From contig NZ_CP049109.1 of NCBI RefSeq assembly GCF_011057975.1, positions 1,271,001-1,335,000 of the forward strand: 64,000 bases of DNA, written 5' to 3'. Of this stretch, positions 8,018 through 28,228 are shown piece after piece; position 1 is the first letter of the stretch, and every line of letters begins with the position of its first letter. This DNA is from Sphingosinithalassobacter tenebrarum (GTDB lineage: Bacteria; Pseudomonadota; Alphaproteobacteria; Sphingomonadales; Sphingomonadaceae). A program made the position numbers and the translations under genes. The notes under the pieces are model-generated. The model was given only the letters and a program-made list of their open reading frames with translations. It did no database searches and had not been told where the DNA came from.

Positions 8018-8208
8018 GGGCTAGTCCTTATATTTGGTTCATCCTCCAATCCGGTGAGCGGAAAGTCCTCATTCAAGCTGCCTTCGAAGGCTTGGCGAGC
8101 TATATGGGACATAATGGTCACGAACGTATCAAAGTGAGTGCGAGAATCTTCTTCGCTCATGTCGAGATTGTCGTAGAATTCTCGATATTCCTCAAACTTC
8201 AATGTCAT
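8014..8208 (-). CDS. small protein coupled to the recombinase
   Basis: A 64-residue acidic soluble protein (MTLKFEEYREFYDNLDMSEE at its N-terminus). Its stop overlaps the recombinase start as ATGA, so the two are translationally coupled. I recognise no domain. Position suggests a recombination directionality or control factor, but it has no visible helix-turn-helix, so this is only inference. Confidence 0.6.
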   Translation of the reverse strand: MTLKFEEYREFYDNLDMSEEDSRTHFDTFVTIMSHIARQAFEGSLNEDFPLTGLEDEPNIRTSP

Positions 8209-8255
8209 ATGTGTTCCATGTGATTTGTGGTTACAATTTTATCCCAGCCAGATAG

Positions 8256-8441
8256 CTACCGGAATCGTTTATTCGACTTATCCACAAGGCAGGCCTGGGT
8301 CGGGTCGGTACCAAGCGCGATATCGATCGCCGCCTCGGCGATGCGATAGAGAACGGCGATCAGGTCCAGCTTCTGCTCAACGCTCGCGTCCATGCCGTCA
8401 AGGTGATGCAGATAGGCTGAAAGATCGTGTTGCATGTTCAT
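8256..8441 (-). CDS. small hypothetical protein
   Basis: A 61-residue mostly helical protein (MNMQHDLSAYLHHLDGMDAS, then VEQKLDLIAVLYRIAEAAID). It lies 47 bases upstream of the recombinase operon in the same orientation. A second in-frame Met follows at residue 3; no strong Shine-Dalgarno is visible. Codon use is normal for the element. No family recognised. Confidence 0.5.
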   Translation of the reverse strand: MNMQHDLSAYLHHLDGMDASVEQKLDLIAVLYRIAEAAIDIALGTDPTQACLVDKSNKRFR

Positions 8442-8829
8442 GGCTCTGTCGGTTGCGAGACGGCAAGGCTGTGGTTCGGCCTGCGTCCCCTCGGGTTTGT
8501 CGTTGTTGTTGGAATACGCGCCCGCTGCGTCCCCGCTGGGGGCTTAGATACGCAAAAGCCCCGCCGTTTCCGGCGAGGCTCTATCGATCTGGATGCACTG
8601 GTAGCGCGTTTAGAAGCAATGGAACATATTTAGAACAAAAAGTCTAGGAATATATTCCGAAAAACAGTGATTCATCGTGCCGCATTTATCGACGATGGTG
8701 GCTGACAATTAATCTCGCTCCTTGGCAGCACGATGAGAATTTTTCTCGCTTATTTTTTTGATCTGCTCTTTCTTCTCGCTTGAAACGTCGCGCTCCCATG
8801 ACATGCTGACTGCATTGAAGGAGGCTGAA
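8442..8829. other. non-coding spacer with hairpin
   Basis: No convincing gene. An imperfect hairpin AGCCCCGCCG-TTTC-CGGCGAGGCT lies at about 8557-8581 with A-rich sequence on its left, so it may terminate minus-strand transcription. The right part becomes AT-rich and should hold the promoter of the gene at 8830. Confidence 0.5.
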
Positions 8830-9334: not shown

Positions 9335-10939
9335 CTACGCATACCCGTCCACATGGTGCAAGCGTCCGCTCTGGTGCTGCGGGAAGTGCGCAAGATGCGC
9401 GGGCACGTCCTTGGCCATTACGCGCACCCATTTGCTGCCGATCAGCCCCGGCAGCTTCACGCGATCGGCGGGCGGATGGAATGGGTTCGGTAGCCATTTG
9501 CCGTTGAGATCGCGCTGCTCGAAATGCGGCCTCTTGGTCGCATAAATGGGCGGCAGGTCGAGGCCGGAGATAAATTCGATCATCCGGTCTTCGGGCATCG
9601 CCAATATCTCGTCGGGTGTCATGAGCGCCCGCTGCATCATGCTCTCATGCTTCGATGCCTTGCGATAATGGGCGTAGTCGAACGCCGCGCTTGCATCGCC
9701 CTCGAACAGGAAGCGGCTCAGCGCCTGTTGCTGCTGGCGGCGTGCGCCTTCCTGTTTTAGCGGGTCGTCATAGCGCAAACTCTGGTTGCCGAGCATGTTC
9801 GAGACGAGCTGCGCGGTCTGATAGTCGCGCACACCGAAAAACATGCGGAGCTGCGCCGAGCCGATAAAGCTCTGCAAGGTCGCGGCACCGAAGTTGCGGA
9901 TGATCTGGCCTACGTCCTGAAACACCGCGAAGGTGCGCACGCCTTCACCGCGTCCGAAGGTGAACGCCGAGAGCAGGGATTCAAAGCGGCCCATTTGTCC
10001 GGCCTCGTCGACGATCATGGTCAGGCGCGGCGCATCGGGCGCGCGGCCCTTGTAAAGGCGGCTGACCGTGAACAGCACGCGCAACAGCGACGACCAGATC
10101 GAGACATATTCCATCGGCACGTTGACGAACAGGCTCGCCACCTGATGCGGGTTGACCAGATCGGCGAGCGAGAAGTCCGGCTCGTCCAGCGAGTCCATCA
10201 ATGTGGGGTCGTTGAGGAAACCGAGCTGGCCTTTGATGGTGCCGAGGATTGCGCCGAACTCCTTCGGCACGTCCTTTTGTTTGTGCCAAATCTCGGCGGC
10301 TCCGGCGCGAATGTCGTGGTGCTTCGAATCTTCCATCGCGCGGAGCTGCGCATCCCAGAACAGCGCATCGCCCTCGATCGCGTTCAGCACGTCGCGGAGC
10401 ATCGGGAAGCTGGCCTTGCCGTGCTGTTCGACGAGCGATTTGATCAGCAGTTCGAGCCATTGGCGCGCGCGCAGCTCGAAATAGTGGCCGTTGCTGCTGC
10501 CGGAAAGCGGAATGAGAGCGGCGGCGATGAAGCCGCAATCGGCGTGAAAACGCGGGTCGGCTTCGTTCAATATGTCGAGCGGGTTGAGGCGGTGGCTGGG
10601 GAGAATATGGGCGTGGAGCTTCACCGGATTCCAGCAATAAGCGTAGGCCCCGTGCGCCGCGAAGTTGTGGATGGTGACGGCGGCAAGCTCGCCGCGCGGG
10701 TCGAGAACCCAGAGCCGCTGTCCTACGCAGCGGATAATCGCTTCCATGAGGACATCGCGGGATTTTCCGGCCCCTGCGCCCGCAACGATCAGACCAGGCG
10801 AGTCGGAATCGAGCCGCATCAGGCGGTTGCCGCTATATCCGATTGGGAAGCCCGTTTTGCCGAACAATCCGGCGCGGGCGATTTCCTCGTCCTCCGCCCA
10901 TCTGGCGCTGCCGAAGCGCTCGTCTCCAAAATCACTCAT
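9335..10939 (-). CDS. TraG/VirD4-family coupling ATPase without membrane anchor
   Basis: A 534-residue conjugative DNA-transfer ATPase that would hand the relaxase-DNA complex to a type IV secretion channel. Walker A is GAGAGKS (residues 54-60), Walker B is LTMIVDEAGQMG (about 300), and the later FGVRDYQTAQLVSNMLG stretch fits the TraD/TraG core. Unlike typical VirD4 and TraG proteins it has no N-terminal transmembrane helices: the chain begins directly with MSDFGDERFGSARWA. Two single-span microprotein genes lie just upstream. No other secretion genes are in the element, so transfer would depend on a helper. Confidence 0.85.
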   Translation of the reverse strand: MSDFGDERFGSARWAEDEEIARAGLFGKTGFPIGYSGNRLMRLDSDSPGLIVAGAGAGKSRDVLMEAIIRCVGQRLWVLDPRGELAAVTIHNFAAHGAYAYCWNPVKLHAHILPSHRLNPLDILNEADPRFHADCGFIAAALIPLSGSSNGHYFELRARQWLELLIKSLVEQHGKASFPMLRDVLNAIEGDALFWDAQLRAMEDSKHHDIRAGAAEIWHKQKDVPKEFGAILGTIKGQLGFLNDPTLMDSLDEPDFSLADLVNPHQVASLFVNVPMEYVSIWSSLLRVLFTVSRLYKGRAPDAPRLTMIVDEAGQMGRFESLLSAFTFGRGEGVRTFAVFQDVGQIIRNFGAATLQSFIGSAQLRMFFGVRDYQTAQLVSNMLGNQSLRYDDPLKQEGARRQQQQALSRFLFEGDASAAFDYAHYRKASKHESMMQRALMTPDEILAMPEDRMIEFISGLDLPPIYATKRPHFEQRDLNGKWLPNPFHPPADRVKLPGLIGSKWVRVMAKDVPAHLAHFPQHQSGRLHHVDGYA

Positions 10940-10962
10940 GGCGTGGTCCTTTCACGGCAAAG

Positions 10963-10990
10963 AAAAAGGGCGGGGATTGCTCCCCGCCCT
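10963..10990 (-). terminator. Rho-independent terminator
   Basis: On the minus strand GGGCGGGGA-GCAA-TCCCCGCCC is followed by TTTTTC, a classical hairpin plus T run. It lies between the 43-residue microprotein gene and the coupling-protein gene, so the latter may need its own promoter or read-through. Confidence 0.8.
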
Positions 10991-11013
10991 GAAAGCGTGT
11001 TGGTGGTCGTCGC

Positions 11014-11145
11014 TTATCCTGCACACTGACCGAGTAGGATGAGAGCGACGACGATAACGCCGACGATCGCGAGGCCATTGCCTTCTTGCCTCGGGCCGTA
11101 TTCGACGTTGGCACGCTTCGGCTCCCAGATTTGCTGTTTCGCCAT
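11014..11145 (-). CDS. 43-residue single-span membrane microprotein
   Basis: A short frame MAKQQIWEPKRANVEYGPRQ, then one hydrophobic span (about residues 24-39) and the ending GQCAG. AAAGGAAG lies nine bases before the ATG. The compact design (charged N-terminus, single helix, short tail) and its place directly upstream of a coupling protein that lacks helices suggest a membrane partner. That role is inference; no family name is known to me. Confidence 0.65.
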   Translation of the reverse strand: MAKQQIWEPKRANVEYGPRQEGNGLAIVGVIVVALILLGQCAG

Positions 11146-11220
11146 AGTTGGCTTCCTTTCTTTATGCCGCCTCATTGCGACGTTGTTCGAATATCGCGGC
11201 GGGCGCGGTGGCTTGGGGGG

Positions 11221-11355
11221 TTAGAAGAAAAGAATCCCGAACAGCGTGCCCGCAACGAACGCCAACCAAACGATGACGGGCCAGTCGGGGCCGTTCCGGC
11301 GGGGCGCGGTGCACATTGCGGAAGCCGCGCCTTCTCCCATGGGAATGATGGTCAT
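11221..11355 (-). CDS. 44-residue single-span membrane microprotein
   Basis: The frame MTIIPMGEGAASAMCTAPRR continues to a hydrophobic C-terminal span (about residues 25-44) ending GILFF. AAAGGAG precedes the ATG at six bases. It is the second of two consecutive microprotein genes between ardA and the coupling protein, all on the minus strand. The function is unknown. Confidence 0.6.
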   Translation of the reverse strand: MTIIPMGEGAASAMCTAPRRNGPDWPVIVWLAFVAGTLFGILFF

Positions 11356-12734: not shown

Positions 12735-13004
12735 CTAGGTATGAAGTGCAGCCTTCCCAAAAAAATAGAGTGTGACGAGGCCGCCGATTCCTGAAAACGC
12801 GACCAAGAAGTTGACACCACCTTCATCAACACCCGCAGACAACAATATCAACGAGATGGCTATGGGCAAAAAGAAGGCTGTGACTCCTAGAGTCAGATTC
12901 AGCGATCGCCGCCGATAAGAATCAGATTTCAATACAAGTCTGAGGCTCTGAATCACGGCAATCAAAATTGAGCCAACACCAAGAAGGGTAACAGCAAATT
13001 CCAT
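12735..13004 (-). CDS. three-span membrane protein, putative immunity for Rhs tip 4
   Basis: An 89-residue hydrophobic protein with three predicted helices (about 3-24, 38-58 and 66-86). It starts six bases after the stop of the preceding Rhs tip frame (13011-13436), the same tip-then-membrane-protein layout seen in the other cassettes. Small multi-span membrane proteins commonly protect against pore-forming toxins, so an immunity role is inferred. No family recognised. Confidence 0.6.
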   Translation of the reverse strand: MEFAVTLLGVGSILIAVIQSLRLVLKSDSYRRRSLNLTLGVTAFFLPIAISLILLSAGVDEGGVNFLVAFSGIGGLVTLYFFGKAALHT

Positions 13005-13010
13005 AGCGGG

Positions 13011-13436
13011 TTATTCGCAAACTCTCGGGATGTTCGTCTGAGGCAGCATCGCTTCAGCAGCTTCACCAGCCAACGCACCAACAACGTCATCAGCGAATGG
13101 CACCACCCCGATAACGCCGCGTGCAATTAGAGTTCCTGCTTCGCGGCGACCTACACCGGTTTCGATCGAGGCTCCAACTTCACCTATCAACTCAAAACCG
13201 CCTCCAAGCCCTTTGGCAAGGAGCGCTGTAAGAGCCAAGCCTCCAGCTAGACCTTCGGCAGGCAATCCCACAGGTGCGCCTACACCCGTACTTGTAGTGA
13301 CAGCACCTGCTGCTGCAACACCACCTGCCAACAAGAGCGTCTGGTCCCCGGCGTCGTCCAGGCCTCTCCCAAAATCACGAAGACCATTGAAGAAGCTCCG
13401 CGCGGCTTGATTACATCCCTGCCCACTTTGCGGCAA
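13011..13436 (-). pseudogene. orphan Rhs C-terminal tip (cassette 4)
   Basis: A 141-residue frame with no ribosome-binding site; its first codon would be TTG inside the conserved junction. It begins LPQSGQGCNQAARSFFNGLR, followed by Gly/Ala-rich hydrophobic segments (about residues 30-90) and a C-terminus ending TNIPRVCE. The Pro-Gln start and the junction motif CACTTTGCGGC (top strand, 13424-13434) match the point where the tip of the full-length rhs gene begins. It is therefore a silent alternative tip rather than a decayed gene, to be expressed only if joined to an rhs core. Confidence 0.65.
13424..13434 (-). repeat. rhs tip junction motif, copy 5
   Basis: On the minus strand GCCGCAAAGTG. 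It spans the Pro-Gln codons at the beginning of cassette 4. Compare copies at 14201, 14875, 17270 and 18008; only positions 9 and 10 of the eleven vary. Confidence 0.65.
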
Positions 13437-13449
13437 CTAAGCAGTTGCC

Positions 13450-13785
13450 TCACATGCAGCCGTATTTTATATCTTTACCTTCTATAATCACTTTACCGCG
13501 CGCGGGATACCCTCCGGTGTAGTAGCAGCCTCTAGCTCTATATCTCTTGCCATCAATGGTCCAAGAGACAAAGAAGCTTCCTTCGCCGTGCAAGTGCTCT
13601 GAAAAACTCAATATCTCACCAGGACCCGCGGCTCCCATCTCCCAAGACGTTTTTCTATCACTTATTACAACATCGGTGATCGGCTCACGCCCGCCGTTTA
13701 TTACCTCAAAAGTACTGTAATAGTCCCTGCATGCACCAATGAGCATCGCAAAAGCGACCAAGACGATCAGGGTGATGCTCTTCAT
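13450..13785 (-). CDS. lipoprotein, putative immunity for Rhs tip 3
   Basis: A 111-residue lipoprotein: signal sequence MKSITLIVLVAFAMLIGACR with lipobox LIGAC (Cys19), then a beta-rich domain (STFEVINGGREPITDVVISD; GEGSFFVSWTIDGKRYRARG). The ATG at 13785 overlaps the tip stop (ATGA), so the two are translationally coupled. A periplasmic lipoprotein partner suggests that tip 3 acts in the periplasm or is blocked there. The immunity role is inferred from context. Confidence 0.65.
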   Translation of the reverse strand: MKSITLIVLVAFAMLIGACRDYYSTFEVINGGREPITDVVISDRKTSWEMGAAGPGEILSFSEHLHGEGSFFVSWTIDGKRYRARGCYYTGGYPARGKVIIEGKDIKYGCM

Positions 13786-14210
13786 TCGATAATGTCCAAG
13801 CAGCCGTTCTTGATCGCGATCGATGCCAGATCTGCGGTAGGAACTCCTCTCCAACGCGGGTCTGTTGTCATCGCAGCTGCGACAGCGTTGTTATACGTAT
13901 CCATTTGCCTAGATCGAACATCACGCTGACTCGTTAGCGGATAATTGGCTTCGTGAGCATTCCCAAATGCTAATGCCCGATCAGGCCCAAGCAATCTTGT
14001 CATTGCGGAGATCCAGTAAAAATGACGAAAAGCATCCCTGACAGTGCCATCCGTGCCAACATCTGGATAAGCTGCTGCCGAAGCGGCGCGAGCTTGATCG
14101 CGCGCTACAAGCGCTGGGTACACGCCTAGAGGATCACGTACGGCTGCACCGTGTTCGCCGACGCTTCCAACAGGCCGACTGGCGGGAACGGCTGGGCAAA
14201 CATTTTGCGG
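13782..14210 (-). pseudogene. orphan Rhs C-terminal tip with DUF6973-like domain (cassette 3)
   Basis: A 142-residue start-less frame beginning PQNVCPAVPASRPVGSVGEH. The C-terminal part carries VRDAFRHFYWISAMTRLLG, then GNAHEANYP and RQMDTYNNAVAAAM. The D-A-F-R-H...W / A-H-E / D-x-x-N-N pattern resembles the DUF6973 domain found at the ends of polymorphic toxins. The frame follows the stop codon of the previous partner gene (TGA 14226-14228) in the same phase with no start codon between, so it is silent where it stands. Confidence 0.65.
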
Positions 14211-14211
14211 C
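14201..14211 (-). repeat. rhs tip junction motif, copy 4
   Basis: On the minus strand GCCGCAAAATG, identical over all 11 bases to the junction inside the full-length rhs gene (18008-18018). It begins cassette 3, fifteen bases after the stop codon of the preceding partner gene. Confidence 0.7.
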
Positions 14212-14225
14212 GATTTTCGCGTAGC

Positions 14226-14492
14226 TCATTCGTCGAATGTATACTCACCACAATGGGGACAGGGGTCAATCACGAACGGCCAGTAAAAGCCATTTGCATC
14301 TTGCGAGATTGGGCCATGCCCGCATTTGCGGCGCTTAAGAGCGCGACTAGCGGCAAAAATAAGAGCGGCAATGCAAAGGATAATCCAAGAGATCGACAAT
14401 ATGTCAGTTTTCCCCATCGGAAAAATAATCGTCATAAAAAATAGAGTTGCCGCGTATATTGAAACGCTATAGAGACCTTTTCCAATTGTCAT
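14226..14492 (-). CDS. two-span membrane protein with zinc-ribbon-like tail, putative immunity for Rhs tip 2
   Basis: An 88-residue protein: two hydrophobic spans (about residues 6-24 and 30-48), then a soluble tail with RRKCGHGPIS and DPCPHCGEYTF, whose cysteines suggest a small metal ribbon. The ATG at 14492 overlaps the tip stop (ATGA). It is positioned exactly like the partners in the other cassettes. The function is inferred only from context. Confidence 0.6.
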   Translation of the reverse strand: MTIGKGLYSVSIYAATLFFMTIIFPMGKTDILSISWIILCIAALIFAASRALKRRKCGHGPISQDANGFYWPFVIDPCPHCGEYTFDE

Positions 14493-14887
14493 TGTCGCCT
14501 CACACACTGAGGGTCGAGATTTGTGACACCTCCTGAACCGACAGTTACGCTACCGCCCGGCGCTTGAGGCCCGAATGTCACGTTCACCCCCTGAAATCCT
14601 TCGCCATTAACTACCACTCCGATATCAACAACGATAAAGTTTGCTTCGAACTCTGTGAATGGCCCAATCAGAGACTGCTGACCCCCGGGGTAGTATCCAA
14701 CTTCAATACCTGCCCCAATGTTGACTCCGGCACCACCGGCAGCATTTCCGTAAAGCTCCGTATCCAGCCAATTATCGACGGCAAATCCTCCGCCAAGACT
14801 ACCTCCTCCGATCGGAGTGACGTAATCCAATGCCCCGCCAACAGTTACAACGCCACTTGCAGGACACGGCCTTTCCTTTTGCGGCAA
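14489..14887 (-). pseudogene. orphan Rhs C-terminal tip (cassette 2)
   Basis: A 132-residue frame with no start signal beyond a TTG within the junction. It begins LPQKERPCPASGVVTVGGAL, is very rich in Gly and Val (GGGSLGGGFAVDNWLD; NAAGGAGVNIGAGIEVGYYP), looks like repeated beta strands, and ends LDPQCVRRQ. Beta-barrel-like or lipocalin-like composition rather than a recognisable nuclease. Upstream of its junction lie 235 bases of non-coding sequence and then the tyrosine recombinase gene. Confidence 0.6.
14875..14885 (-). repeat. rhs tip junction motif, copy 3
   Basis: On the minus strand GCCGCAAAAGG. Sequence around it (CACTTGCCGCAAAAGGAAAGG) is very similar to the copy at 17270, so these two junctions share about 15 of 17 bases. 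It begins cassette 2. Confidence 0.7.
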
Positions 14888-15122
14888 GTGAGGAACCCGA
14901 CGCCAAGGATCGTAGCTCGCTGCGTTTTCCCCGACGCACCAGCGTCTTGCAGGCGCCAGCGGCTGAGACGGCGATGGGGGACGGGCCTCAGACCCCCAGA
15001 GGCGGTTTTCCGGCGCGCGGGAGCCGTCGCCAGGATGCGGCGCGGCTTGATCGCAAGGGCGTGCCCGGTGGTCATGGGAGCAGGGATAGCGCGCAGGCGC
15101 TCGATGCGCCAGCTTTGGGAGG

Positions 15123-16223
15123 TCAGTCTTCCTCAGCCGCCTCTTCGTCGAGTCGGGCGAGCAGCGCGGCGCGAGCATCGCCGGCATCGTCGGCCGAGCT
15201 GCCGGCGCGTCCGCGCTTACCGATCGGCCGCCCCGGATGGGTGGCGGTGTGGATCTGTTTGAGCATGCGGATGCTGACCTGGGTATAGATCTGGGTGGTG
15301 GAGAGTTCGGCATGGCCGAGCATGGCCTGGATGAACCGGATCTCGGCCCCGCCTTCGAGCATCAGCGTCGCCATGGTGTGGCGCAAGAGGTGGCACGAGC
15401 CGGTCTTGCCGATATCGGCGGCGGCGACGTAATTGCGCACGAGCTGAGTCATGCGGTTGGCCGCGAACGCCTCGCCCGCCGTGGTCAGGAACAGCGTGCC
15501 GTCATCGTCCCCGAACGCGAAGTCGGGCCGCACGTCCTCACGGTATTTGTCGATCCACTGGAGCGCCCGCGCGCCGATCGGGATCATCCGGTCCTTGCGA
15601 CCCTTGCCTTGGCGCACCAGCAGCGTGCCCCGGTCGGAGTCGATATCGGTCAGGCCCAGGTTCACCAGCTCCATGCGGCGGATGCCGGTCGAGTAGAACG
15701 TCTCCAGGATCGCCCGGTCGCGCAGGCCGATCGGCGTGCCGGTGTCAGGCTGCGCGAGGACCAGCTCGGCCTCGCGGGCGGAGAGCACATGGCGCGGCAG
15801 GCGCTTTTCCATGCGCGGCAGGTCCAGCTCGCTCGCCGGATTGTAGAGGATGTGATTGCCGCGCGCGAGCCACTTGAACAGCGCCTTGATCGGAGTGGTG
15901 CGCACATGCTGGCTGCGGGTCGATAAGGGCTCGCCATTGGGCTTGCGATAGAGGAACAGGTGGCGCTGATAGCGCTCCAGGATCGGCTTGGTGATCTCCT
16001 GCGGGCGGGTCAGTCCGCGCTCCGCGCACCAGGCGATGAACGGCCTGACCGGTGATTGCGCCGGTCCGTCCAATGCCGGTTTCCAGCCCCTCGATCGCAT
16101 GGAGCGGGCCGCAACCTCAGGCGGAACCGGGCGCAAAAGCAGCCTCCCTCCCGCCGCATCGATCGCCAGCCAGCGCAAATCGTCAGGCACAGGCGCAAGG
16201 CGGGGGCAGTTGGGAGATTTCAC
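15123..16223 (-). CDS. XerC/D-type tyrosine recombinase inside the rhs cassette array
   Basis: A 366-residue tyrosine recombinase. The catalytic domain is complete: Arg in YSTGIRRMEL, Lys in VRQGKGRKDR, His-x-x-Arg in CHLLRHTMAT, His in MLGHAELSTTQIYTQ and the Tyr nucleophile two residues later. The core-binding domain (ITKPILERYQRHLFLYRKPN; TPIKALFKWLARGNHILYNP) is recognisable, but the first 65 or so residues do not look like the usual SAM-like start. It lies between cassette 1 and cassette 2 on the same strand. I infer that it may act on the cassette junctions, or that it is an insertion that settled there. Confidence 0.85.
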   Translation of the reverse strand: MKSPNCPRLAPVPDDLRWLAIDAAGGRLLLRPVPPEVAARSMRSRGWKPALDGPAQSPVRPFIAWCAERGLTRPQEITKPILERYQRHLFLYRKPNGEPLSTRSQHVRTTPIKALFKWLARGNHILYNPASELDLPRMEKRLPRHVLSAREAELVLAQPDTGTPIGLRDRAILETFYSTGIRRMELVNLGLTDIDSDRGTLLVRQGKGRKDRMIPIGARALQWIDKYREDVRPDFAFGDDDGTLFLTTAGEAFAANRMTQLVRNYVAAADIGKTGSCHLLRHTMATLMLEGGAEIRFIQAMLGHAELSTTQIYTQVSIRMLKQIHTATHPGRPIGKRGRAGSSADDAGDARAALLARLDEEAAEED

Positions 16224-16311
16224 CCGCTGTTACAGCACTTTGCAACCCGACGACTTGCACACGATTGGCACATCCAAATCGCGATTTGCCCGCAAATCGG
16301 TCGATGCACTC

Positions 16312-16321
16312 CCGCAAAATG
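16312..16321 (+). repeat. CCGCAAAATG copy in inverted orientation
   Basis: An exact 10-base match on the plus strand to the core of the rhs junction motif, lying 89 bases upstream of the recombinase start. With the copy at 12487 it brackets the recombinase and cassettes 2-4 in direct orientation. The match is short and may be coincidence. Confidence 0.35.
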
Positions 16322-16491
16322 GCAATCAACCCGCTGATCTTGCACCATTCTCCATGCGGCAGGCGCTGCGTCCGGTGTGCTCGCCAGATTCCACAATGCA
16401 CGATGCCGATCCGGTGAAGATGCCGGGGCGTTCAAGGAGGGACATTCATATCATTCGCAATAACGAATGTTTGGTCATGGACGGATTGCTC

Positions 16492-16884
16492 TTACCTAGA
16501 AGAGCTCCGAGTATCGCCAAGCGATTCTCCGTCCTCATCGAAAGTAAGAAAGCTTCCGATAGCCCACGTGCAAGCGGCATAATCGATCAAAAAAATCACG
16601 GTAATTGCAAAGCTAGAGTATTCCCTTAACCGCTCTCCAACTGCCAAGATCATGACCAAGTGGACTATAGCGATAATCACAAGTCCAAAGTGCAATCTCC
16701 GCCTCGGCTCACCATCATGCAAAGTATGCCATAAGAAGATTAAAACGCCTTGTACGCAGTATGTCAGATAGCCCCAGTGGAAGTCGCGCAGAACGCCGAC
16801 GAGGATGGCTAATGGAAGCGCTGCCGCCATTACCCAAACTACTGCCGTCAAACGCTTCTCCATCCACCTGTTGATGGTGTTCAT
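16492..16884 (-). CDS. four-span membrane protein, putative immunity for Rhs tip 1
   Basis: A 130-residue protein starting MNTINRWMEKRL with four predicted helices (AVVWVMAAALPLAILVGVL; WGYLTYCVQGVLIFLWHTL; HFGLVIIAIVHLVMILAV; SFAITVIFLIDYAACTWAI). The ATG at 16884 overlaps the tip stop (ATGA). It follows the tip-plus-membrane-partner rule of the array. The topology resembles colicin-type immunity proteins against pore formers; this is an inference from shape only. Confidence 0.65.
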   Translation of the reverse strand: MNTINRWMEKRLTAVVWVMAAALPLAILVGVLRDFHWGYLTYCVQGVLIFLWHTLHDGEPRRRLHFGLVIIAIVHLVMILAVGERLREYSSFAITVIFLIDYAACTWAIGSFLTFDEDGESLGDTRSSSR

Positions 16885-17282
16885 TGTGCGTTGCTGCGGC
16901 AATCGCGGTATTGCTCGTAGCCCTTTCTCACATCGTTGATTGCACCACCGATTGCCAGAAACATTCCTACGCCCGGCACCGCGCGCGCAAAACGTCTCCC
17001 AAGCGATGTTCCAGGTTGTGCCCCGACACGGGCTGCTTCTGGGCTCGCAGCAGAAAGGCCATATGCAAGCGTCGATGAGCCCGCGCCAACGGCGTCAGTT
17101 TGAATTGCGCTGTTTACCAAGCCGCCAGAACTAGTTGCCAGACCAACTAGCGCTTTTCCAGCTGTGCCGAGCGGCGTAGCCGATACCGCGGCACTCCCGG
17201 CGTTCAGGGCAAAGCTCACGCCGTTGTCCTTTACCGCACCCAACAGACAGGCACCAACCGAGTCCTCCTCCTTTTGCGGCAA
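16881..17282 (-). pseudogene. orphan Rhs C-terminal tip (cassette 1)
   Basis: A 133-residue frame beginning LPQKEEDSVGACLLGAVKDN, followed by Ala/Gly/Ser-rich hydrophobic stretches (SFALNAGSAAVSATPLGTAG; GVGMFLAIGGAINDV) and a Cys near the end (YRDCRSNAQ). There is no ribosome-binding site; the only possible start is a TTG in the junction. The upstream frame is merely the neighbouring gene read in another phase. Its junction (17270-17280) lies ten bases after the stop of the rhs-linked membrane gene, so it is the first silent alternative to the expressed tip. Confidence 0.65.
17270..17280 (-). repeat. rhs tip junction motif, copy 2
   Basis: On the minus strand GCCGCAAAAGG, at the start of cassette 1. 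It directly follows the stop codon region of the membrane gene coupled to full-length rhs. Confidence 0.7.
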
Positions 17283-17289
17283 GGGTGGG

Positions 17290-17595
17290 TCATGGATTCT
17301 CACGCTTCTCCGAAAGTCGCCATACGCGTCTGATCGAATACGCAAGGTAGCCCAAAGTTGAGACCGTAAAGATTATCGCGACCAAAAGGCGATTGTCATT
17401 CATAATGATGCCATAGGAAAATGACATCGATGATATCAATCCTATTGCTACTTCTATTAGAGAAAACCTCCAAAACTTTTTTCTTATGCGCCTCTGCATT
17501 AACGAGAGAAGGATGAGGGCGTTCGCCCAGAAAGTGAACTTCAGCGCGATAAAAACTAGCGCTGTCACGCCAATGAGGGCTGCAAGGCTGTCCAT
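17290..17595 (-). CDS. three-span membrane protein coupled to rhs, putative immunity
   Basis: A 101-residue membrane protein with three predicted helices (about residues 4-24, 45-66 and 69-89) and a basic tail (IRRVWRLSEKRENP). Its ATG overlaps the rhs stop codon by one base (TAATG), so expression follows that of the full-length Rhs protein. By position it is the cognate protector of the currently joined tip. No sequence family recognised. Confidence 0.7.
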   Translation of the reverse strand: MDSLAALIGVTALVFIALKFTFWANALILLSLMQRRIRKKFWRFSLIEVAIGLISSMSFSYGIIMNDNRLLVAIIFTVSTLGYLAYSIRRVWRLSEKRENP

Positions 17596-20500
17596 TACCG
17601 AACCCTACAAGCCGCAGCCTCGGCGCCATTTGAAGCAACAAGCCCGACTCCCTCGCCGATAACGTCAGAAGCTCCTCTGCTCGTTCCAGCACCAATCCGG
17701 ACGGCTATCCGTGAGCCCACGCTTGCTCCGCCTCCTACTAAAGCACCAATCCCCGAAGCGATGGCCCCTTGAGTATCTCCCTGATAGAGCTTGATACCTG
17801 CACTGATAACACTGGCTCCTGCCGATGCTACTCTGGCGCCCGCTGCAACACCAGCGGCAGATATCCCACCTACGACCGTCGGCGCAGTCGCGACGGCGAC
17901 ACCTGCGGCACCAACCGCCACAACGTCCGCTCCAAGCGCGAAGCCATCTAAGACAGCTGTAGCGGAACCTAAGTACGAAGTGAGGTCGCTATCGCACGGA
18001 ACAGGATCATTTTGCGGCCGCGGCCTTGGCACAGAACGCGAACCACCACCGCCAGCCAATGGATTGTGTCCAGGCCAAGGGGTTGTGCGTACAACTATCT
18101 CTGCTACGCAATCGAAAAGGGGCTCGATCCAAACATTAATTACTTTAGAGACTGTACTACCATCCGGGAGCAAGTAGTACTCCCTGAGGGTGGATTCCCT
18201 TATTACGCATGCAAGGCCGGTGGGGTCAATTCGATTAACCGGATCATTGCCAACATAGCCGTAGATATTAGGACCATCGGCATAACCGATGGGATCGGTC
18301 TGCAGGAACCTGCCCAGCTCGGGCGCGTACATCCGGGCCTTGTAATAGTAGATATCGAGGTCTTCGAGCCACGCCTGGCCGGTATATTGGAACCGCCCGA
18401 TATTCCCCGCCCCGGGATTACCCCAGGCGTCATAGCTGTTGGCAGAGAGCAGCGTGCCGTCGCTGTCGGTCACCGCCGTGATCGACCCCAGCCGATCGGG
18501 CATCAGGTTGCGCATATAGGATAGCGAGACCCCCGAGCCTTCATACCAGGCGATCGGCGCGTCCACCCGGCCCGGATCGAACACATAGCGCCGCAGGATC
18601 GCGCCCGAGCCGTCATATTCCATGATCAGCCGGTCGCCATCGTAGAGATATTCGGTCGCGCTGCCCGATACCGAGGGGTCGGCGCTTTCCCACAGCCGCC
18701 CAAGCGGATCATAGGACAGGCTCGCGCTGTGGCTGCCCGAGGCGCTCGTCAGCCGGTTCTGCACGTCATAGCCATAGGTCGTGCCGCCGTCGCTCGTGAG
18801 ATTGCCGTTCCCGTCATAGCTGAACGCAGTCCCGGCGACACTCGAATATTGATTGAGGCCGTTGGCCACATAGCCCTGGCTGCCGTTGTCGTAGCCGGTG
18901 AACGCATAGGCGTCGTTGCTGCGATCCTGTGACATCACCTGGTTCGCCGGATTGTAGGCGAAGGTCGTCGTCAGGTCCGAGGCCGTGCCCGACAGATCGA
19001 ACTCCAGGCTCGCAAGGCGCGAGACATCGTCATAGCCATAGACCAGATCCGCGTCGCCACGCCGCTCCTCCAGTGTCCGGCGGCCGAGATCGTCATAGCT
19101 GATGTCCGAAAGCACATTGCCGCCGCGCTTGATGCGCGTGACCCGGCTCAACACGTCATATTCATAGGCGACGAAGGCACTGTCGGGATAGGTCAGCTGC
19201 GTGCGGTTGCCCGCCGCATCATATTGATAGCTCAAGGTGCGCGCCGTGCCGCTCATGTCATTGCTCGTCGCGGTCACGCGCCCGAGCGCATCCCAGTCAT
19301 GGCTGATGCCCGTGCCGGTGGTGGAGCCGTGGCGCGCGTACAACAGCCGCCCGAGCAGATCGTAACCGTAATAATCGTCCGGCCCGGGAATATTCTTCCG
19401 GTAAAGGCGGTTCAGGTCATCATAATAGAAATAGATGTTCTGAGCCGCGCGCGTACGCAGCTGCACGATATTGCCGTTGGCGTCATAGTCATAACGAATG
19501 TGATCACTGCTCGAACTGGTGCCCGCCCCCTGGGTCGTGTCGGGGAAATAGACACGCGAGAGCCGGTCGACGCCATCATAGCTATAGCTGGTCTTGTTGC
19601 CCTCGCCATCGGTAAGCGATTCGATTTGTCCATTGTCGGTATAGGTGAGCGCCTGAACGACCGCGGCAACGCCGGTGTCATAGCCCGAGATCGTTTCGAG
19701 CGCGCGGCCATTATCGTCATATTCGGTCCTGGTGATACGATCGGGCCCGAAGCTGCCACCCGTATTCGCTTCGCACGCATCGGTCTGCGATCCCCAGGCG
19801 GCGGCGTTCATGCGCAACGCGGTACATTCGAGCCGTCCACGGCTGTCATAGCCATATTGGACGAGCTGATAGGTCGTGCCATCGGCGCTCACCGCATCCT
19901 GGGTCTTGCGCGCGGTCGCGGCGTCATAGGTTGACGTGGCTTGCTGGAGCGAGACGAAGTTGCTCCAATCGGTGTCGCTCGTCCCCGTAACGGTGCCGAG
20001 CTCGGTTTCCGTACGCTGGCCGTCATCATTATAGTGCATCCGCAGCGCCTGCCGAACCAGCGGCCCCGCGCCGTCGGGATCGGGCGCGATGACGCCCAGC
20101 AGCTGGCGGCCCAGATCATAGCGATAGCTGGTCGTATCGGCGGTGCCCGACAGCGGACCATCGACGCTGGCGATATTGCCGACCGCGTCATAGGACGGCT
20201 TGACCGTCGAGGAGACACTGGCATCGCCCGCGCGACTTTCCATCTCGGTCAGCAGGATATTGCTCGCGGTCGAGGCCGAACCCGATTGATAGGTGAACTC
20301 GGTCACGCTTTCATCCGCGCTTCCCGTACAGCTCGATCCCGAAGCACAGGCCGACACCCGCTCGAGCCGCACCACGGGCGTTGGCGCCTGCACCAGCGTT
20401 CCTGAGGCATTGCGATACCATGCATAATGGCTGCCATAGGTGTAGCGGGTCTGGGGCCGCGTTCCGCCCGATGCTGCTGCCGGTCGCGTAACCGTCAGTA

Positions 20501-21899
20501 CGCCGCCGTGACTGCTGTTATAGGTGTAGTCGGTGACATTGCCGAGCGGATCGGTGGTGGAGACCGGCTTGTTGCAGACCACTGCGCTCGCCGTCGCGCA
20601 TTGATCGGTATAGGTCGTGCTGCTCGCCGGGTAGCTGCTCTGAAAGACGATATCCGAAAGGGTCGAACCCGATTTGGGCGATACGGTTATTTCGGTCACA
20701 TTGCCGCGACTGTCATAGTCATAGCTGACCGAGTTGCCTTCCGGCGCGGTTACCGTTTCCAGAAGGCGCGTCGTTGCGTCATAGCTGTAGCCGGTCTCAT
20801 TGCCGAGCGCGTCCTCGTCGGAAATGATCTGCATATAATCGAGGTCGGTCGTGACGATCCGCTTCTCGTCGCCGGAAGCGTTGACGGTGGTCGTCCTCTC
20901 ATTGGTGCCGGTGTCATCGGCATAATCGTAGGTCGTCGTAACGCCGTTGCGTACCACCGAATCCACCATGCCATTGCCGTCATAGCTGATGGTAACATTA
21001 TCGGTGCTGGCGCCGGGACGTTTGATGCCGGTCAGCCGCCCCGAAGTGAAGCTGTAGGTCGTTTCGTTGCCCAGGCTGTCGGTGAACGATTCAACGCCGG
21101 ACATCGAGAGCGACGGCCAGCTCTGCGAATAAGTGCAATAGAGTGAATCGGGATCGCAGCCATCGACGGTCGTATTGACCAGCGTCACCTTCGAGACGTC
21201 GAACCAGGCATTCGAATCCTCCAGGGAATCGGGAGGGATGACTTCGTTGAACGTCATCCGCATCTGATAGCCGCGATTCGATTCCACGGAGATCAAGCGA
21301 CCTATGGTGACATAGGTCTGGCAGTCGCCGGGCCACCCTTTGAGGCAAGTGGACGCGACCTGATAATGGTAGGTCAGCTTCTCGCCATTTGGCCGGGTGA
21401 GCGTCTGGATGGAACTTCCGTTGGTAATATACATGGTACGCGTCGCGACTTGCGCGAAGGTCGCAACTGTTCCGTCAGCTCTGGTGTAGACACCATTTTC
21501 CAAGGTCGAGCCGGTATGCTGATCGGAGAGATATTCGCCGCTTACCGCATCCAGGCTGAACGTTTCGGTTGCTCCGCCGATACTGACGGTAACCGGACCT
21601 CCCGGCGAATAGATGACACCACTGGTGGAATCCCGAAATTGTCGGTCGGACGTCACGCTTCGGCTGAAGACCAGCGCCGGGTCGTCCGCAGGCCCGATCG
21701 AGACGGAATGCGACGGCGCGATCAACACGCCGCGGGTCAGATCAACGCCGTTCGCATCGATGGTCTGACGGATCGGGGGCAAGGGCGGCGGCTCATATTC
21801 CTGCGCTTTGGCGATTGCCGGCAGCGCAACGGATGCAATCAGGCACAAGCGGATCGAATGTCGCGCGGCAGCGCGGCCGAAAACGGAAAATGAATGCAT
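17595..21899 (-). CDS. Sec-exported Rhs/YD-repeat protein with Gly/Ala-rich tip
   Basis: A 1434-residue protein. Residues 1 to about 32 are a signal peptide (IRLCLIASVALPAIAKAQ). The next 300 form an N-terminal domain, and from about 270 to 1170 there are many YD repeats (YDANGNIVQLRTRA, YDAAGNRTQLTYP, YDVLSRVTRI and others). The Rhs core closes with the motif RFLQTDPIGYADGPNIYGYV and RIDPTGL near residue 1220. A constant stretch of about 75 residues leads to PRPRPQNDPVPCD at about 1294, where the junction motif lies. The remaining 138 residues are a hydrophobic Gly/Ala-rich tip ending EAAACRVR. Rhs shells encapsulate toxic tips and release them by autocleavage; the activity of this tip is not evident. 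Confidence 0.9.
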   Translation of the reverse strand: MHSFSVFGRAAARHSIRLCLIASVALPAIAKAQEYEPPPLPPIRQTIDANGVDLTRGVLIAPSHSVSIGPADDPALVFSRSVTSDRQFRDSTSGVIYSPGGPVTVSIGGATETFSLDAVSGEYLSDQHTGSTLENGVYTRADGTVATFAQVATRTMYITNGSSIQTLTRPNGEKLTYHYQVASTCLKGWPGDCQTYVTIGRLISVESNRGYQMRMTFNEVIPPDSLEDSNAWFDVSKVTLVNTTVDGCDPDSLYCTYSQSWPSLSMSGVESFTDSLGNETTYSFTSGRLTGIKRPGASTDNVTISYDGNGMVDSVVRNGVTTTYDYADDTGTNERTTTVNASGDEKRIVTTDLDYMQIISDEDALGNETGYSYDATTRLLETVTAPEGNSVSYDYDSRGNVTEITVSPKSGSTLSDIVFQSSYPASSTTYTDQCATASAVVCNKPVSTTDPLGNVTDYTYNSSHGGVLTVTRPAAASGGTRPQTRYTYGSHYAWYRNASGTLVQAPTPVVRLERVSACASGSSCTGSADESVTEFTYQSGSASTASNILLTEMESRAGDASVSSTVKPSYDAVGNIASVDGPLSGTADTTSYRYDLGRQLLGVIAPDPDGAGPLVRQALRMHYNDDGQRTETELGTVTGTSDTDWSNFVSLQQATSTYDAATARKTQDAVSADGTTYQLVQYGYDSRGRLECTALRMNAAAWGSQTDACEANTGGSFGPDRITRTEYDDNGRALETISGYDTGVAAVVQALTYTDNGQIESLTDGEGNKTSYSYDGVDRLSRVYFPDTTQGAGTSSSSDHIRYDYDANGNIVQLRTRAAQNIYFYYDDLNRLYRKNIPGPDDYYGYDLLGRLLYARHGSTTGTGISHDWDALGRVTATSNDMSGTARTLSYQYDAAGNRTQLTYPDSAFVAYEYDVLSRVTRIKRGGNVLSDISYDDLGRRTLEERRGDADLVYGYDDVSRLASLEFDLSGTASDLTTTFAYNPANQVMSQDRSNDAYAFTGYDNGSQGYVANGLNQYSSVAGTAFSYDGNGNLTSDGGTTYGYDVQNRLTSASGSHSASLSYDPLGRLWESADPSVSGSATEYLYDGDRLIMEYDGSGAILRRYVFDPGRVDAPIAWYEGSGVSLSYMRNLMPDRLGSITAVTDSDGTLLSANSYDAWGNPGAGNIGRFQYTGQAWLEDLDIYYYKARMYAPELGRFLQTDPIGYADGPNIYGYVGNDPVNRIDPTGLACVIRESTLREYYLLPDGSTVSKVINVWIEPLFDCVAEIVVRTTPWPGHNPLAGGGGSRSVPRPRPQNDPVPCDSDLTSYLGSATAVLDGFALGADVVAVGAAGVAVATAPTVVGGISAAGVAAGARVASAGASVISAGIKLYQGDTQGAIASGIGALVGGGASVGSRIAVRIGAGTSRGASDVIGEGVGLVASNGAEAAACRVR
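18008..18018 (-). repeat. rhs tip junction motif, copy 1 (inside rhs)
   Basis: On the minus strand GCCGCAAAATG, encoding the Pro-Gln step of the full-length Rhs protein and the point where similarity of layout with the orphan tips begins. Identical to the copy at 14201-14211. Confidence 0.7.
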
Positions 21900-21955: not shown

Positions 21956-22201
21956 TCATGGAGGGGAGGTCGCGCCCGTAACGGTGACGTTCACGCGATT
22001 GTTCGCGTCGTCATAGCTGTAATTGGCAACCATATTGTTGTTGACCGAGCCGCTATGCTCGACCTCGATCAGCCGACCACGCGCGTCATATGTGAAGTTG
22101 GATGTGTCATTGCCGAAGGTTTCGCTACTGTTCGCAAGCGAAATGCCCAGACCGCCGACAAGAGAGAAAGCGCCAAATATCGCGAGCTTGACTTTGAACA
22201 T
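21956..22201 (-). CDS. small exported protein with a single YD repeat
   Basis: An 81-residue protein: a signal peptide (FKVKLAIFGAFSLVGGLGIS) and one YD-type unit (FTYDARGRLIEVEHSG, then ANYSYDDANNRVNVTVTG). It lies 56 bases upstream of rhs on the same strand and is probably cotranscribed. It could be a chaperone, plug or accessory subunit for the Rhs shell, or the relic of an N-terminal rhs fragment. An intact signal peptide and proper stop favour a real gene. Confidence 0.65.
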   Translation of the reverse strand: MFKVKLAIFGAFSLVGGLGISLANSSETFGNDTSNFTYDARGRLIEVEHSGSVNNNMVANYSYDDANNRVNVTVTGATSPP

Positions 22202-22639: not shown

Positions 22640-22658
22640 TGCATGGTATTACCATGCA
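22640..22658. promoter_or_regulatory. inverted repeat beside the tandem repeats
   Basis: TGCATGGT-ATT-ACCATGCA is a perfect 8-base inverted repeat that runs directly into the first 25-bp repeat unit. It could be an operator or a protein-binding anchor for the array. Confidence 0.4.
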
Positions 22659-22830
22659 CATCTTGCAGTCAGCCTAACAGGCACATCTCGCAGTCAGCCT
22701 AACAGGCACATCTCGCAGTCAGCCTAACAGGCACATCTCGCAGTCAGCCTAACAGGCACATCTCGCAGTCAGCCTAACAGGCACATCTCGCAGTCAGCCT
22801 AACAGGCACATCTCGCATTCAGCTTGAGTG
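22656..22830 (+). repeat. seven 25-bp tandem repeats (iteron-like)
   Basis: The unit GCACATCTCGCAGTCAGCCT plus AACAG occurs seven times head to tail: units 2-6 are identical, the first has one substitution (T for C at position 9), and the last has diverged over its final ten bases. There are no spacers, so this is not a CRISPR. It ends 103 bases before the CHAT gene start. Iterons bind replication initiators or regulators, but no rep gene is nearby. Confidence 0.9.
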
Positions 22831-22933: not shown

Positions 22934-25624
22934 ATGGTATTATCGGGATGGCGATTCACTCTTATTCACTTGTTTGGCAAGTTCATAAAGCTATTTTCGA
23001 AGACCCTATATCATCGCCTTCGTTCATTTAAGTGGATTTCGGTGATAAGTAACGCTGATTCGATGCCGGATGACCTTCTTCTTTCAGTGACGGACCTGTA
23101 TCTTTTGGAAGTCCAATCGGCGTTTCAGCACTTTCGTGAAGTCGATCCGAAATTCGGCTCTAAATTGGCCCAAATCAAAGCGCATATGCATACGTTGCGC
23201 GCGAGCCGCCTAAGCTATCCCGAAGGGCGTCGCGAAGCGATTGCTGCGATTGGAATTCTAAATCAGGAGAAGGTTAATATTCTCAAACGAGGTGACGAGC
23301 AGGATAGGGCGAACTTTGTTGGAATGTATGCGATGTCGAAATTATCCACGCTCTCATCGAAATATGATGGCGATGAACTAGAGGATCTAGCTTCGACTAT
23401 AGTAGAAATAGATAAAGTGGTCAAAGGAATATCTGGCGATAGTGATCCACTTAACCTATTTCCGATATATTTTGTCCAATTGCTGACATTGGCCGCTCTT
23501 GGTGAGCGAGTCCCGACGCAGATGGAAGCGTCAGTTTATCGCCAAGCCGTTATCGTCGCCCAGAAAGCACTCAATACGTTCAACGTCTTTCCCGGCTTTG
23601 CAAAGAACCGACCTCTTTTTATTGAGCAGCGAGAAAGGACCGTCCTTCTAATGGGAGATGCCTTGCTGCGTCTTGACGAAAGGTTGGAACAAAGCAACCT
23701 CCTCACGGGGGAGGAAAGAGCCAATATTCTTCGCGAGGCGCTAGAAATATACAACCGTCACATTGAAAGTATGACCGAACAGGGTGGTGCCCGTAGGAGG
23801 GTTCTAATTCGAGATCGTGCGAAGGTCCTTTTCGCGCTCGCTCGCAGTAAGGGTTCGGACAATCGCCGTTCACTTGTGGATCAAGCAATTCAGGATATGG
23901 AGTACGTGCTTCATCACCGGCAGAATGCCGGGGAATGGGGAGCGGTTGTATCTGACGCCCATGACATAGTGCGTATGTCATGCGCGTTAAGGGATTGGGC
24001 TAAAGCAGGAGATACAGGACTTCGCTATTTGTCAGCTGCGAGAGAATCGTATTTTCTGAACAGAGGTGTCGTTACGGAACGAGCGTTTGCCTCCAGCGTA
24101 GGCCGTCTCGCCGATCTAACTGCCTTTGCTTGCCTTATGCGTAGTGATGCCGAAGCGGCTTTCACCGCAGTTTCCGGTGGCAGGTCGATAAGACGAGGCT
24201 CTGAAAACGATTGGCTGGGCCGTTTGGAAGCTGTCTCAAGGGACGAGGCTAAGCGCCTATTAGATCGCTACCGCAAGGCGGAGGAACTGCACGACTATCT
24301 AGAGCGTGAAGCGCGCTTCGGCACTGCCGATCACCTGAGCTCACTACGCGCCGGCAAGAGTGAGGTGGCTTGGAAGCGCCTAGTTGATGCTTATGACGCG
24401 CTAGTTCGACATCTGCGTACGAGTGGTGTTTCAATGAATTACCAGGGGTATGAACCCCAGCAGATAGCCTCCCAGATTATGCGAGATGTTGCGGCCGCTG
24501 TTGTATTTGGGATTTGTGAATTCGGTGCATTTACGATTGTTGTCCGGCCCGCAGATACTGGGCACAAGTTTTCCTCTGTTTGCGTGAAAGGTCTTTCATT
24601 TCAAGAATGGGCGCATCTCCTTGGTGAGGAGACCGACGGGTGGACAAAATGCTACACCAACTTCGTCAGCACCATCAACGACTCGAAAGGGCATCCCTCT
24701 GCAGAGCCAGCCGCGCGTTTCAATTCGACCATTGACGCTACGGAGCGGGCTATCAATGAACATTTTCTCTCACATGTAGCCACACACTTAGAAAAGTGCG
24801 AGATTGTCGAGGGCAAGAGAGTTCGTGTTCTGGCACCAGGATTTATGACCCTCGTTCCGGTGCATCTTGGACATCTTACAGAGTATGGCGCTTCGTGGCC
24901 GACGTGCTTCTCTAGCATGGCTCGCTTGCCCATGTCTCGTGAGAAGGCGACATGTGCGAATAGCGTTCTGGTGGTGGCTAACCCCACCGGTGATTTGCTT
25001 GAGCCTGATTGGGGTGCGCTTGTTGACGGGAGAGATGGGATTGACGTGTTACGCGGACCAGTAACGTCTGCGACAATGCTATCAAGGATAGAAGGCTATT
25101 CGGTAGCTATTTTCTACTGTCACGCTAAATGGAATCGCGAGGGTATTGATCAATCGGGACTCATTCTGGGGAACGGCACTCTCTGGTCTGCAGCAGATAT
25201 TCGTAGCACAGTCGCTGTGAGAGATGTTCATGTCATTCTCACATGCTGTGAAAGTGGCCTTTCCGACCCGGGCGACTTCGCCTATGAAGGAAGAGGCCTA
25301 GCAGAGGCTTTTCTAGACGCAGGAGCCGCCAGCGTAATTGCGACGCATTGGCCGATCTACACGGCAACGGCTATCGCGCTTCTGGAGCGCCTTTTTGCTC
25401 TGCCCAGCTTCGACGATTTCGACCCGATCGCCTTTGTAGAAAGCTTCAGAAAAGCCGAGGGCGCTTCCGGCCGCCATATTGCGACGGCGGGAGTCGGCAG
25501 CGCGTTTCCAACTGTACCAATCGAGAATTTGAGCGATGAGGCTAAGGAGAGTGGCAAGGCTTCTAATTTCGAATTATTGTCATCCATGCCATTACACCGA
25601 GATGCGTTCAGCGTGTTCATGTAG
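22934..25624 (+). CDS. CHAT-domain (caspase-like) protease with helical N-terminus
   Basis: An 896-residue protein. The C-terminal CHAT domain (about residues 560-850) has the catalytic His in VAIFYCHAKWN (His730) and Cys in HVILTCCESGLSDP (Cys771 or 772), followed by the typical EGRGLAEAFLDAGAASVIAT and HWP. The N-terminal 500 residues are helical with TPR-like spacing, as in HetF-associated CHAT proteins that sense a partner. GGAAGG lies three bases before the ATG at 22934, supporting this start. Its stop abuts the stop of the convergent ankyrin-like gene. Lower GC and location in a mobile element suggest a defence or conflict role. Confidence 0.85.
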   Translation: MVLSGWRFTLIHLFGKFIKLFSKTLYHRLRSFKWISVISNADSMPDDLLLSVTDLYLLEVQSAFQHFREVDPKFGSKLAQIKAHMHTLRASRLSYPEGRREAIAAIGILNQEKVNILKRGDEQDRANFVGMYAMSKLSTLSSKYDGDELEDLASTIVEIDKVVKGISGDSDPLNLFPIYFVQLLTLAALGERVPTQMEASVYRQAVIVAQKALNTFNVFPGFAKNRPLFIEQRERTVLLMGDALLRLDERLEQSNLLTGEERANILREALEIYNRHIESMTEQGGARRRVLIRDRAKVLFALARSKGSDNRRSLVDQAIQDMEYVLHHRQNAGEWGAVVSDAHDIVRMSCALRDWAKAGDTGLRYLSAARESYFLNRGVVTERAFASSVGRLADLTAFACLMRSDAEAAFTAVSGGRSIRRGSENDWLGRLEAVSRDEAKRLLDRYRKAEELHDYLEREARFGTADHLSSLRAGKSEVAWKRLVDAYDALVRHLRTSGVSMNYQGYEPQQIASQIMRDVAAAVVFGICEFGAFTIVVRPADTGHKFSSVCVKGLSFQEWAHLLGEETDGWTKCYTNFVSTINDSKGHPSAEPAARFNSTIDATERAINEHFLSHVATHLEKCEIVEGKRVRVLAPGFMTLVPVHLGHLTEYGASWPTCFSSMARLPMSREKATCANSVLVVANPTGDLLEPDWGALVDGRDGIDVLRGPVTSATMLSRIEGYSVAIFYCHAKWNREGIDQSGLILGNGTLWSAADIRSTVAVRDVHVILTCCESGLSDPGDFAYEGRGLAEAFLDAGAASVIATHWPIYTATAIALLERLFALPSFDDFDPIAFVESFRKAEGASGRHIATAGVGSAFPTVPIENLSDEAKESGKASNFELLSSMPLHRDAFSVFM

Positions 25625-27704: not shown

Positions 27705-27961
27705 TTTGTGGGGGGAAGCCTATGCGGCTTCCCTGATTTCTCTGGCCAAGCGATCGCTGGCGGTCTGGTGGTGGGCGGGGTCAAGCTCGATACCGATCCA
27801 ATCGCGTGCGCCGCGATCAGTCGCCACGAGCGATGAACCGGAGCCGCAGAACGGGTCGAGGACGAGCCCGCCCTCGGGGCACAGGCTGGTGATCAACGTG
27901 ACGTGCTCCCCTGAAATGTGACCGATTTTGAGTAGAGTCCGACACGAAGGAGTCGGACGGA

Positions 27962-28228
27962 ATGAAGCGCAGCAGGTTCAGCGAAGAGCAGATCATCGCG
28001 ATCTTGAAGGAGCAGGAGGCGGGGATGGCGACGGCGGACGTGTGCCGCCGCCATGGGATCAGTTCAGCCACGTTCTATAAATGGAAGTCGAAGTTCGGCG
28101 GGCTGGAGGTTTCCGAGGCGCGCCGTCTGCGGGCGCTCGAGGACGAGAACGCCAGGCTCAAGAAGCTGTTGGCCGAGGCGATGCTCGACAACGTGGTGCT
28201 GAAGGATCTGGCGTCAAAAAAATGGTGA
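27962..28228 (+). CDS. IS3-family transposase OrfA
   Basis: An 88-residue DNA-binding subunit. The helix-turn-helix is [20 protein letters not shown]...[19 protein letters not shown], followed by a leucine zipper ([19 protein letters not shown]). It ends ASKKW within the A7 run where ribosomes can shift frame into orfB to make the OrfAB transposase. Confidence 0.92.

Follow-up and report, generated by a model that had tools for sequence, protein, structure and literature searches.

The 64-kb window, by which the whole stretch of analysed DNA is meant, carries a locus for an exported Rhs polymorphic toxin on a mobile element. New toxin tips seem to have been gained here in succession, with the older tip/partner pairs displaced downstream into silence, and the tips appear to be cut at the DNA word CCGCAAAR, at the border between the delivery part of the protein (core and linker) and its toxin domain. 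We regard this reading as probable, at roughly 0.7. Loci of this kind are known. The present one is a core-less variant, and what is new is the DNA cut point that recurs at the toxin border.

The Rhs gene and its tip/partner pairs

A full-length, exported-looking Rhs gene is followed on the same strand by four tip frames without an ATG, each coupled or nearly coupled to its own membrane protein or lipoprotein, and in these respects the initial annotation of the region is confirmed (Table 1). The RHS repeats and the Rhs_assc_core domain, the latter at residues 1156-1229, score above the cut-offs of the Pfam and NCBIfam profiles, and an N-terminal signal peptide was judged by eye. A PAAR domain, which is expected of a T6SS Rhs effector, was not detected in the protein in either profile collection up to an E value of 1. 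Stop and start codons overlap in four of the five tip/partner pairs. The partners are probably immunity proteins, and tip0 may perhaps be membrane-active. None of the four orphan tips (0/4) carries a core fragment.

Table 1. Features of the Rhs locus, in the order in which they are read on the minus strand (window positions)
Feature	Position	Strand	Remarks
Full-length Rhs protein, 1434 aa	17595..21899	-	YD/RHS repeats, core, linker and tip0
Linker, from core end (DPVN) to junction word	18018..18234	-	Contains AEIVVRT
Junction word CCGCAAAA opening tip0	18010..18017	-	From the word scan of the window
Tip0, fused, glycine-rich	17595..18017	-	Family orphaned in locus L050
Imm0, small membrane protein, partner of tip0	17290..17595	-	TAATG overlap with tip0
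Orphan tip1, no core remnant, starts with junction word	16881..17279	-	
Imm1, hydrophobic	16492..16884	-	Membrane spans by eye; ATGA overlap with tip1
XerC-like tyrosine recombinase	15123..16223	-	Likely a passenger insertion; stretch of 66% GC
Orphan tip2, glycine-rich, starts with junction word	14489..14884	-	
Imm2, two predicted membrane spans and Cys pairs	14226..14492	-	ATGA overlap with tip2
Orphan tip3, DUF6973, BteO match	13782..14210	-	
Imm3, lipoprotein with lipobox, partner of tip3	13450..13785	-	ATGA overlap with tip3
Orphan tip4, glycine-rich, starts with junction word	13011..13433	-	
Imm4, three predicted membrane spans	12735..13004	-	6 nt after tip4

Tip3 matches the DUF6973 profile of Pfam with 52.9 bits (cut-off 27). 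A Foldseek search with this tip gave no match at an E value of 0.001; a closer look, combined with the sequence profile, led to BteO, a T6SS effector of Bacteroides fragilis with a solved structure (PDB 9uu0), which tip3 matches both in sequence profile and in fold. The likeness concerns the toxin domain of tip3. Literature searches for BteO together with Bacteroides fragilis, or for DUF6973, returned nothing.

Several other features of the element lie around the array. A tRNA-Ala gene predicted by ARAGORN (window 6429-6504) overlaps the end of a frame (6440-8017) that by eye resembles a large serine recombinase, and the element probably inserted at this place. The Rhs gene is immediately preceded by an 81-aa frame (window 21956-22201, minus strand) with a YD repeat and, by eye, a signal peptide. 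This frame is 99% identical in the second copy of the element described below and has 62 matches in 56 fetched loci, many of them perhaps inside Rhs genes. Further upstream lies a tandem repeat (window 22650-22824) whose 25-bp unit is present about seven times; the second copy appears to have fewer units, and this may be a variable-number repeat. An 896-aa frame (window 22934-25624, plus strand), of the TPR/CHAT protease type by eye, is divergent from the Rhs gene and possibly represents a defence gene.

Exchange of tips within the genome and the family

The genome, a single contig of 3.86 Mb, contains a second Rhs gene (L003, G000:C1:1866000-1885000). The DNA of the two copies is 98.3% identical over 4456 bases, from window position 22689 down to 18234, which is the core end; past it, the second copy differs in linker, tip and partner. 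Its tip also opens with the word of tip0, here read as TPQNDP. Further parts of the element are common to both copies, at 6495-8658 (96.9%) and 9343-11314 (94.8%). The presence of like cores with different tips in one genome indicates that tips are exchanged between otherwise like elements, in this case at the core end. The second copy also contains, at 100% identity, the stretch at window 27897-29138, which resembles a transposase. A search for close copies of the window locus on plasmids gave no match.

The proposal that related genomes would have a core joined to the orphan tips holds for the tip3 family and falls short for the others. The tip3 family occurs in 4 of the 396 other genomes of the family that were searched. 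Long Rhs frames carry it as a fused tip in L095 (1456 aa) and L022 (1313 aa), and it sits on truncated cores in L094 and L097, where imm3 relatives lie behind the tip3 relatives. For tips 2 and 4, no fused relative was found among the family genomes and the fetched loci, and for tip1 none was confident, the single match to a fused tip (L065) being weak; tip2 had matches in its own genome only, among 397 genomes. Weak matches of tip1 (G064) and tip4 (G085) were dropped on account of frames that read by eye as ordinary enzymes, as was a second weak match of tip4 in its own genome, which has an internal stop. The fused tip0 of the window and its partner have relatives that form an orphan pair behind another full Rhs gene in Rhizorhapis (L050), at 62% and 43% identity. 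One core with different tips, a tip3 family that is fused elsewhere and a tip0/imm0 pair that is orphaned elsewhere together support, at the level of sequence comparison, the view that tips are swapped. In L077 (7509-7847), an imm3 relative (71.5 bits) stands behind an Rhs gene whose tip is unlike tip3, and it is perhaps a lone immunity gene.

A compact array of several cassettes had been thought unusual for this group, and this finds no support. Truncated cores that neighbour another core end were seen on 26 of 125 locus-strands, a count that keeps core remnants by definition and stems from loci partly chosen for arrays; the fetched loci were picked for strong core matches and arrays, and such counts are therefore not frequencies. 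The longest tip array met has six core ends in a row (L133, in G233). Core remnants are present on displaced tips in L094, L095, L097 and L140. Given that truncated-core arrays are found repeatedly in the family, the array as such represents the known pattern of C-terminal displacement. In the Enterobacteriaceae, according to Jackson 2009 (PMC2935791), displaced tips have core fragments and the exchange is ascribed to homologous recombination of the core. One core with exchangeable tips and strings of displaced tips downstream are common to those loci and to the window; the four orphans of the window, however, are without core fragments, and a single short DNA word opens each of them. The locus is therefore likened to Rhs displacement as a core-less variant, and its four tips without core remnant are the less usual case.

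A short DNA word at the toxin border

All five tips of the window open with CCGCAAAR, coding for Pro-Gln (18017-18010, 17279-17272, 14884-14877, 14210-14203 and 13433-13426). The common Pro-Gln junction that had been noticed at each tip is thus real, and it is conserved as DNA. Within 12735-18020, the minus strand has the word at the five tip starts and nowhere else, and one plus-strand copy (16312) also lies inside this region. The window as a whole has 16 copies, both strands counted; 100 dinucleotide shuffles gave 6.85 on average and 13 at most. From the stop codon of a partner to the next word, the spacers measure 10, 15 and 16 nt, and the fourth, from imm1 to tip2, measures 1607 nt because the recombinase sits there. 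Around the word, tips 1 and 2 have 15 identical bases in common, CTTGCCGCAAAAGGA, and the junctions of the fused tip and tip1 have 9 identical nt. In Salmonella, too, a full rhs gene has next to it an orphan toxin/immunity pair that is silent and lacks both a start and an export signal; there, however, main and orphan are 95% identical over 522 bp (Koskiniemi 2014, PMC3967940). All five tips of the window have the word in frame, so that an exchange between any two of them keeps the frame.

Across the family, 169 distinct core ends were gathered in 124 loci, drawn from 79 named loci, 60 stretches of family genomes, further fetched stretches and the window. The 36 core ends of a 'mid' class with shorter proteins were set apart, and 128 of the other 133 were used for the word count. 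The 8-mer GCCGCAAA is present in the linker-tip zone of 24 of the 128, and no 8-mer exceeded 11 in 20 codon shuffles; the other frequent 8-mers of this zone are glycine-linker repeats. In L140, the partner of the third tip ends in TAG, directly followed (0 nt) by CCGCAAAAT, the beginning of a core-less tip; this tip is JAB-like, and a fused form of its family is present in L160 (71% identity). In L155, a core-less tip resembling phospholipase A2 starts at the word, 3 nt past the stop codon of the partner. L006 and L140 each contain two Rhs copies that are almost the same as far as the word and diverge after it. Open-access literature on Rhs in connection with the TonB box, Sphingomonas or microhomology yielded nothing on this junction or on the linker motif treated below, in titles, the beginnings of abstracts and some passages.

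The word is carried by only about a fifth of the tips. Furthermore, 110 of 116 like-core pairs, including the two copies of this genome, break at or before the core end, and of the six inner break points two are at the word (L006 and L140) and four elsewhere (one each in L031 and L071, two in L133). Core-less orphans of relatives were accepted in L004, L096, L140, L155, L174 and L188, which together with the four window tips were kept from 22 candidate clusters once frames cut by the end of the locus, near-core variants, a short remnant and doubtful frames had been dropped, and also in L050; two of these seven start at the word. Core-less frames with the word number 14 on the same strand, six of which are counted as tips (four in the window and those of L140 and L155), and eight on the opposite strand, none of which is. 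Since 110 of the 116 pairs part no later than the core end, we reject the word as a universal swap point. With few tips carrying it and most breaks lying elsewhere, it is therefore one preferred border and not the sole one.

In the sequence of events that we favour, incoming DNA would pair with the long core on one side, as in the published model. On the other side, to judge from the cut points, it would be joined at the short shared word by microhomology, and the old tip would be left intact behind the new partner. Tips cut at the word would therefore become displaced modules without a core, and these orphans would be silent but able to return. A word of 7-9 nt is too short for ordinary RecA recombination, which counts against a joining at the word, as do the 110 break points just mentioned, the four inner ones away from the word, the five of seven core-less orphans in relatives that start elsewhere, the 12 Pro-Gln junctions written in other codons and the failure to find confident fused relatives of tips 1, 2 and 4. 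The 110 break points, together with the truncated cores on 26 of 125 locus-strands, would agree with plain C-terminal displacement by core recombination, in which the core remnants were lost later and the word is a leftover of an ancestral junction. We consider this rather unlikely. Were core lost at random, the loss would not halt 10-16 nt short of the word at three adjacent window junctions, nor end 0-3 nt past a stop codon in L140 and L155, and it would not keep a DNA word between unrelated linkers and tips.

The bases around the word bear on whether DNA or protein is conserved. Behind core ends outside the mid class, CCGCAAA is found 28 times in the Pro-Gln frame and 4 times in other frames; in the mid class the figures are 0 and 5 out of frame. 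The junction zones of 125 tips, the two of this genome included, contain 36 Pro-Gln, of which 24 are written CCGCAA. An ARN codon comes next in 23 of these 24 (N in 12, S in five, each time AGY, R in three, each time AGR, and K in three), at a background ARN frequency of 13%, and in five of the 12 where Pro-Gln has other codons. The binomial figure, 1.5e-19, is too strong, because the zone was set after the word had been seen and the rows of one array are not independent. Serine and arginine after CCGCAA use AGY or AGR in 8 of 8 cases, even if TCN and CGN codons predominate in the tips overall. As the residue after Pro-Gln varies over the ARN set (N, S, K, R), it is the DNA that is conserved rather than the protein. 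It could be imagined that the Pro-Gln junction is instead a protein signal, such as a cleavage or folding site, with like codons arising by chance or codon habit, and the frame in 28 of 32 non-mid cases would suit this idea. We hold it to be improbable, given that the next residues are alike in DNA only, down to the serine and arginine codons, and that CCG makes up only one third of the proline codons in tips.

The orphan tips had been described as start-less. There is indeed no ATG near the junctions, but at tips 1, 2 and 4 a TTG stands immediately ahead of the word, so that a weak start is possible there. The orphans might then be made within the cell as small toxin-antitoxin pairs, in the manner of the role that PMC7043789 proposes for a Salmonella Rhs orphan, or they might be a mere immunity store. 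Neither seems probable, with tip3 lacking a TTG at the word and no ribosome site being evident by eye.

Finally, the internal recombinase gene is real, and a profile search places it in the XerC-like subfamily PRK01287. A relative (62%), in two pieces, lies about 2 kb behind the Rhs gene of L075, where the tip has no word, and three other fetched loci hold distant relatives (24-31%). In L006 (12117-12195), a piece of 79 nt with 92% DNA identity to the window recombinase follows directly behind a two-tip array that has the word, and it adjoins a frame that by eye is transposase-like. No relative was found by tblastn in the arrays of L094, L095, L097, L140 and L155, all of which contain the word. 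The genome itself has only distant relatives, and plasmid matches to the recombinase stretch stay below 80% identity and cover half of the query at best. The GC content of the stretch is 66%, against 45-60% for tips and partners. On these sequence grounds the recombinase looks like a passenger that landed beside such arrays at least twice, though it may still have a role; as the engine of the array it is disfavoured by the five word-bearing arrays without a relative and by the merely distant relatives in its own genome. The suggestion of a dedicated diversity generator thus loses its footing, with one close relative (L075), one short piece (L006) and five arrays without either. An integron-like cassette system, in which the XerC-like or another recombinase would move tip/partner cassettes between words, would fit their head-to-tail order, word to word, the tyrosine recombinase inside the array, the L006 copies split at the word with the recombinase piece behind them and the relative in L075, but it is very unlikely, since the recombinase, unlike that of an integron or shufflon, is not conserved with the arrays, differs in GC content and splits imm1 from tip2. 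A listing of inverted repeats with arms of 20 nt or more shows none at the junction words.

The linker and the delivery of the toxin

Ahead of the word, many linkers contain a motif that resembles a TonB box. Of 118 distinct linkers, 30 contain the pattern [IV][VTI]V[TVNS][GA]; a single one of the 118 tip ends has it, as do four core windows out of 739. At most 5 linkers had it in 300 within-linker shuffles, which are a weak control, the core and tip windows being the better one. D or E stands ahead of the motif in 16 of 36 occurrences. The linker of the window, with AEIVVRT, fits a relaxed pattern only (41 of 118 linkers, shuffles up to 12), and that of the second copy fits neither; in the mid class, the strict pattern is present in 5 of 34. 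Among the TonB receptors of this genome, with 48 plug domains, 30 of which have loci, the same pattern stands just ahead of the plug in at least 21 of the 30. Membrane proteins or lipoproteins make up 75 of 127 partners in the main class and 12 of 32 in the mid class, and 52 of the 127 look soluble; these classes were assigned from the nearest open frame by simple hydropathy. This make-up of the partners would be in keeping with envelope-acting toxins.

With a motif enriched in linkers, a receptor-like pattern, and membrane-protein or lipoprotein partners, TonB-dependent entry of Rhs toxins appears to be a fair hypothesis, as a hint at colicin-like entry that is no proof. More tentatively, the exported Rhs proteins of this group could be a two-part weapon. 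The Rhs core would be cut at its end, and the TonB box in the linker of the released piece would allow the TonB protein of the target to pull the toxin into the periplasm, as with colicins. CCGCAAAR would then be the DNA border between this delivery part and an exchangeable toxin cassette, and cassettes could be swapped with the entry signal left untouched. The TonB-dependent toxins of the colicin M type (PMC5821083) have a TonB box ahead of an envelope-acting toxin, and membrane-bound partners; in the Rhs proteins, by comparison, the box-like motif lies inside the linker and no receptor-binding domain is known.

If functional, the linker motif would suggest how exported Rhs toxins without PAAR cross the outer membrane of a competitor. 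How an Rhs tip is exchanged together with its partner, precisely and in frame, is unsettled, and the published displacement model needs homology of the core. The recurring DNA word at the toxin border is a candidate for the point of exchange, and it may also serve as a marker for displaced tip/partner pairs that are missed by domain searches.
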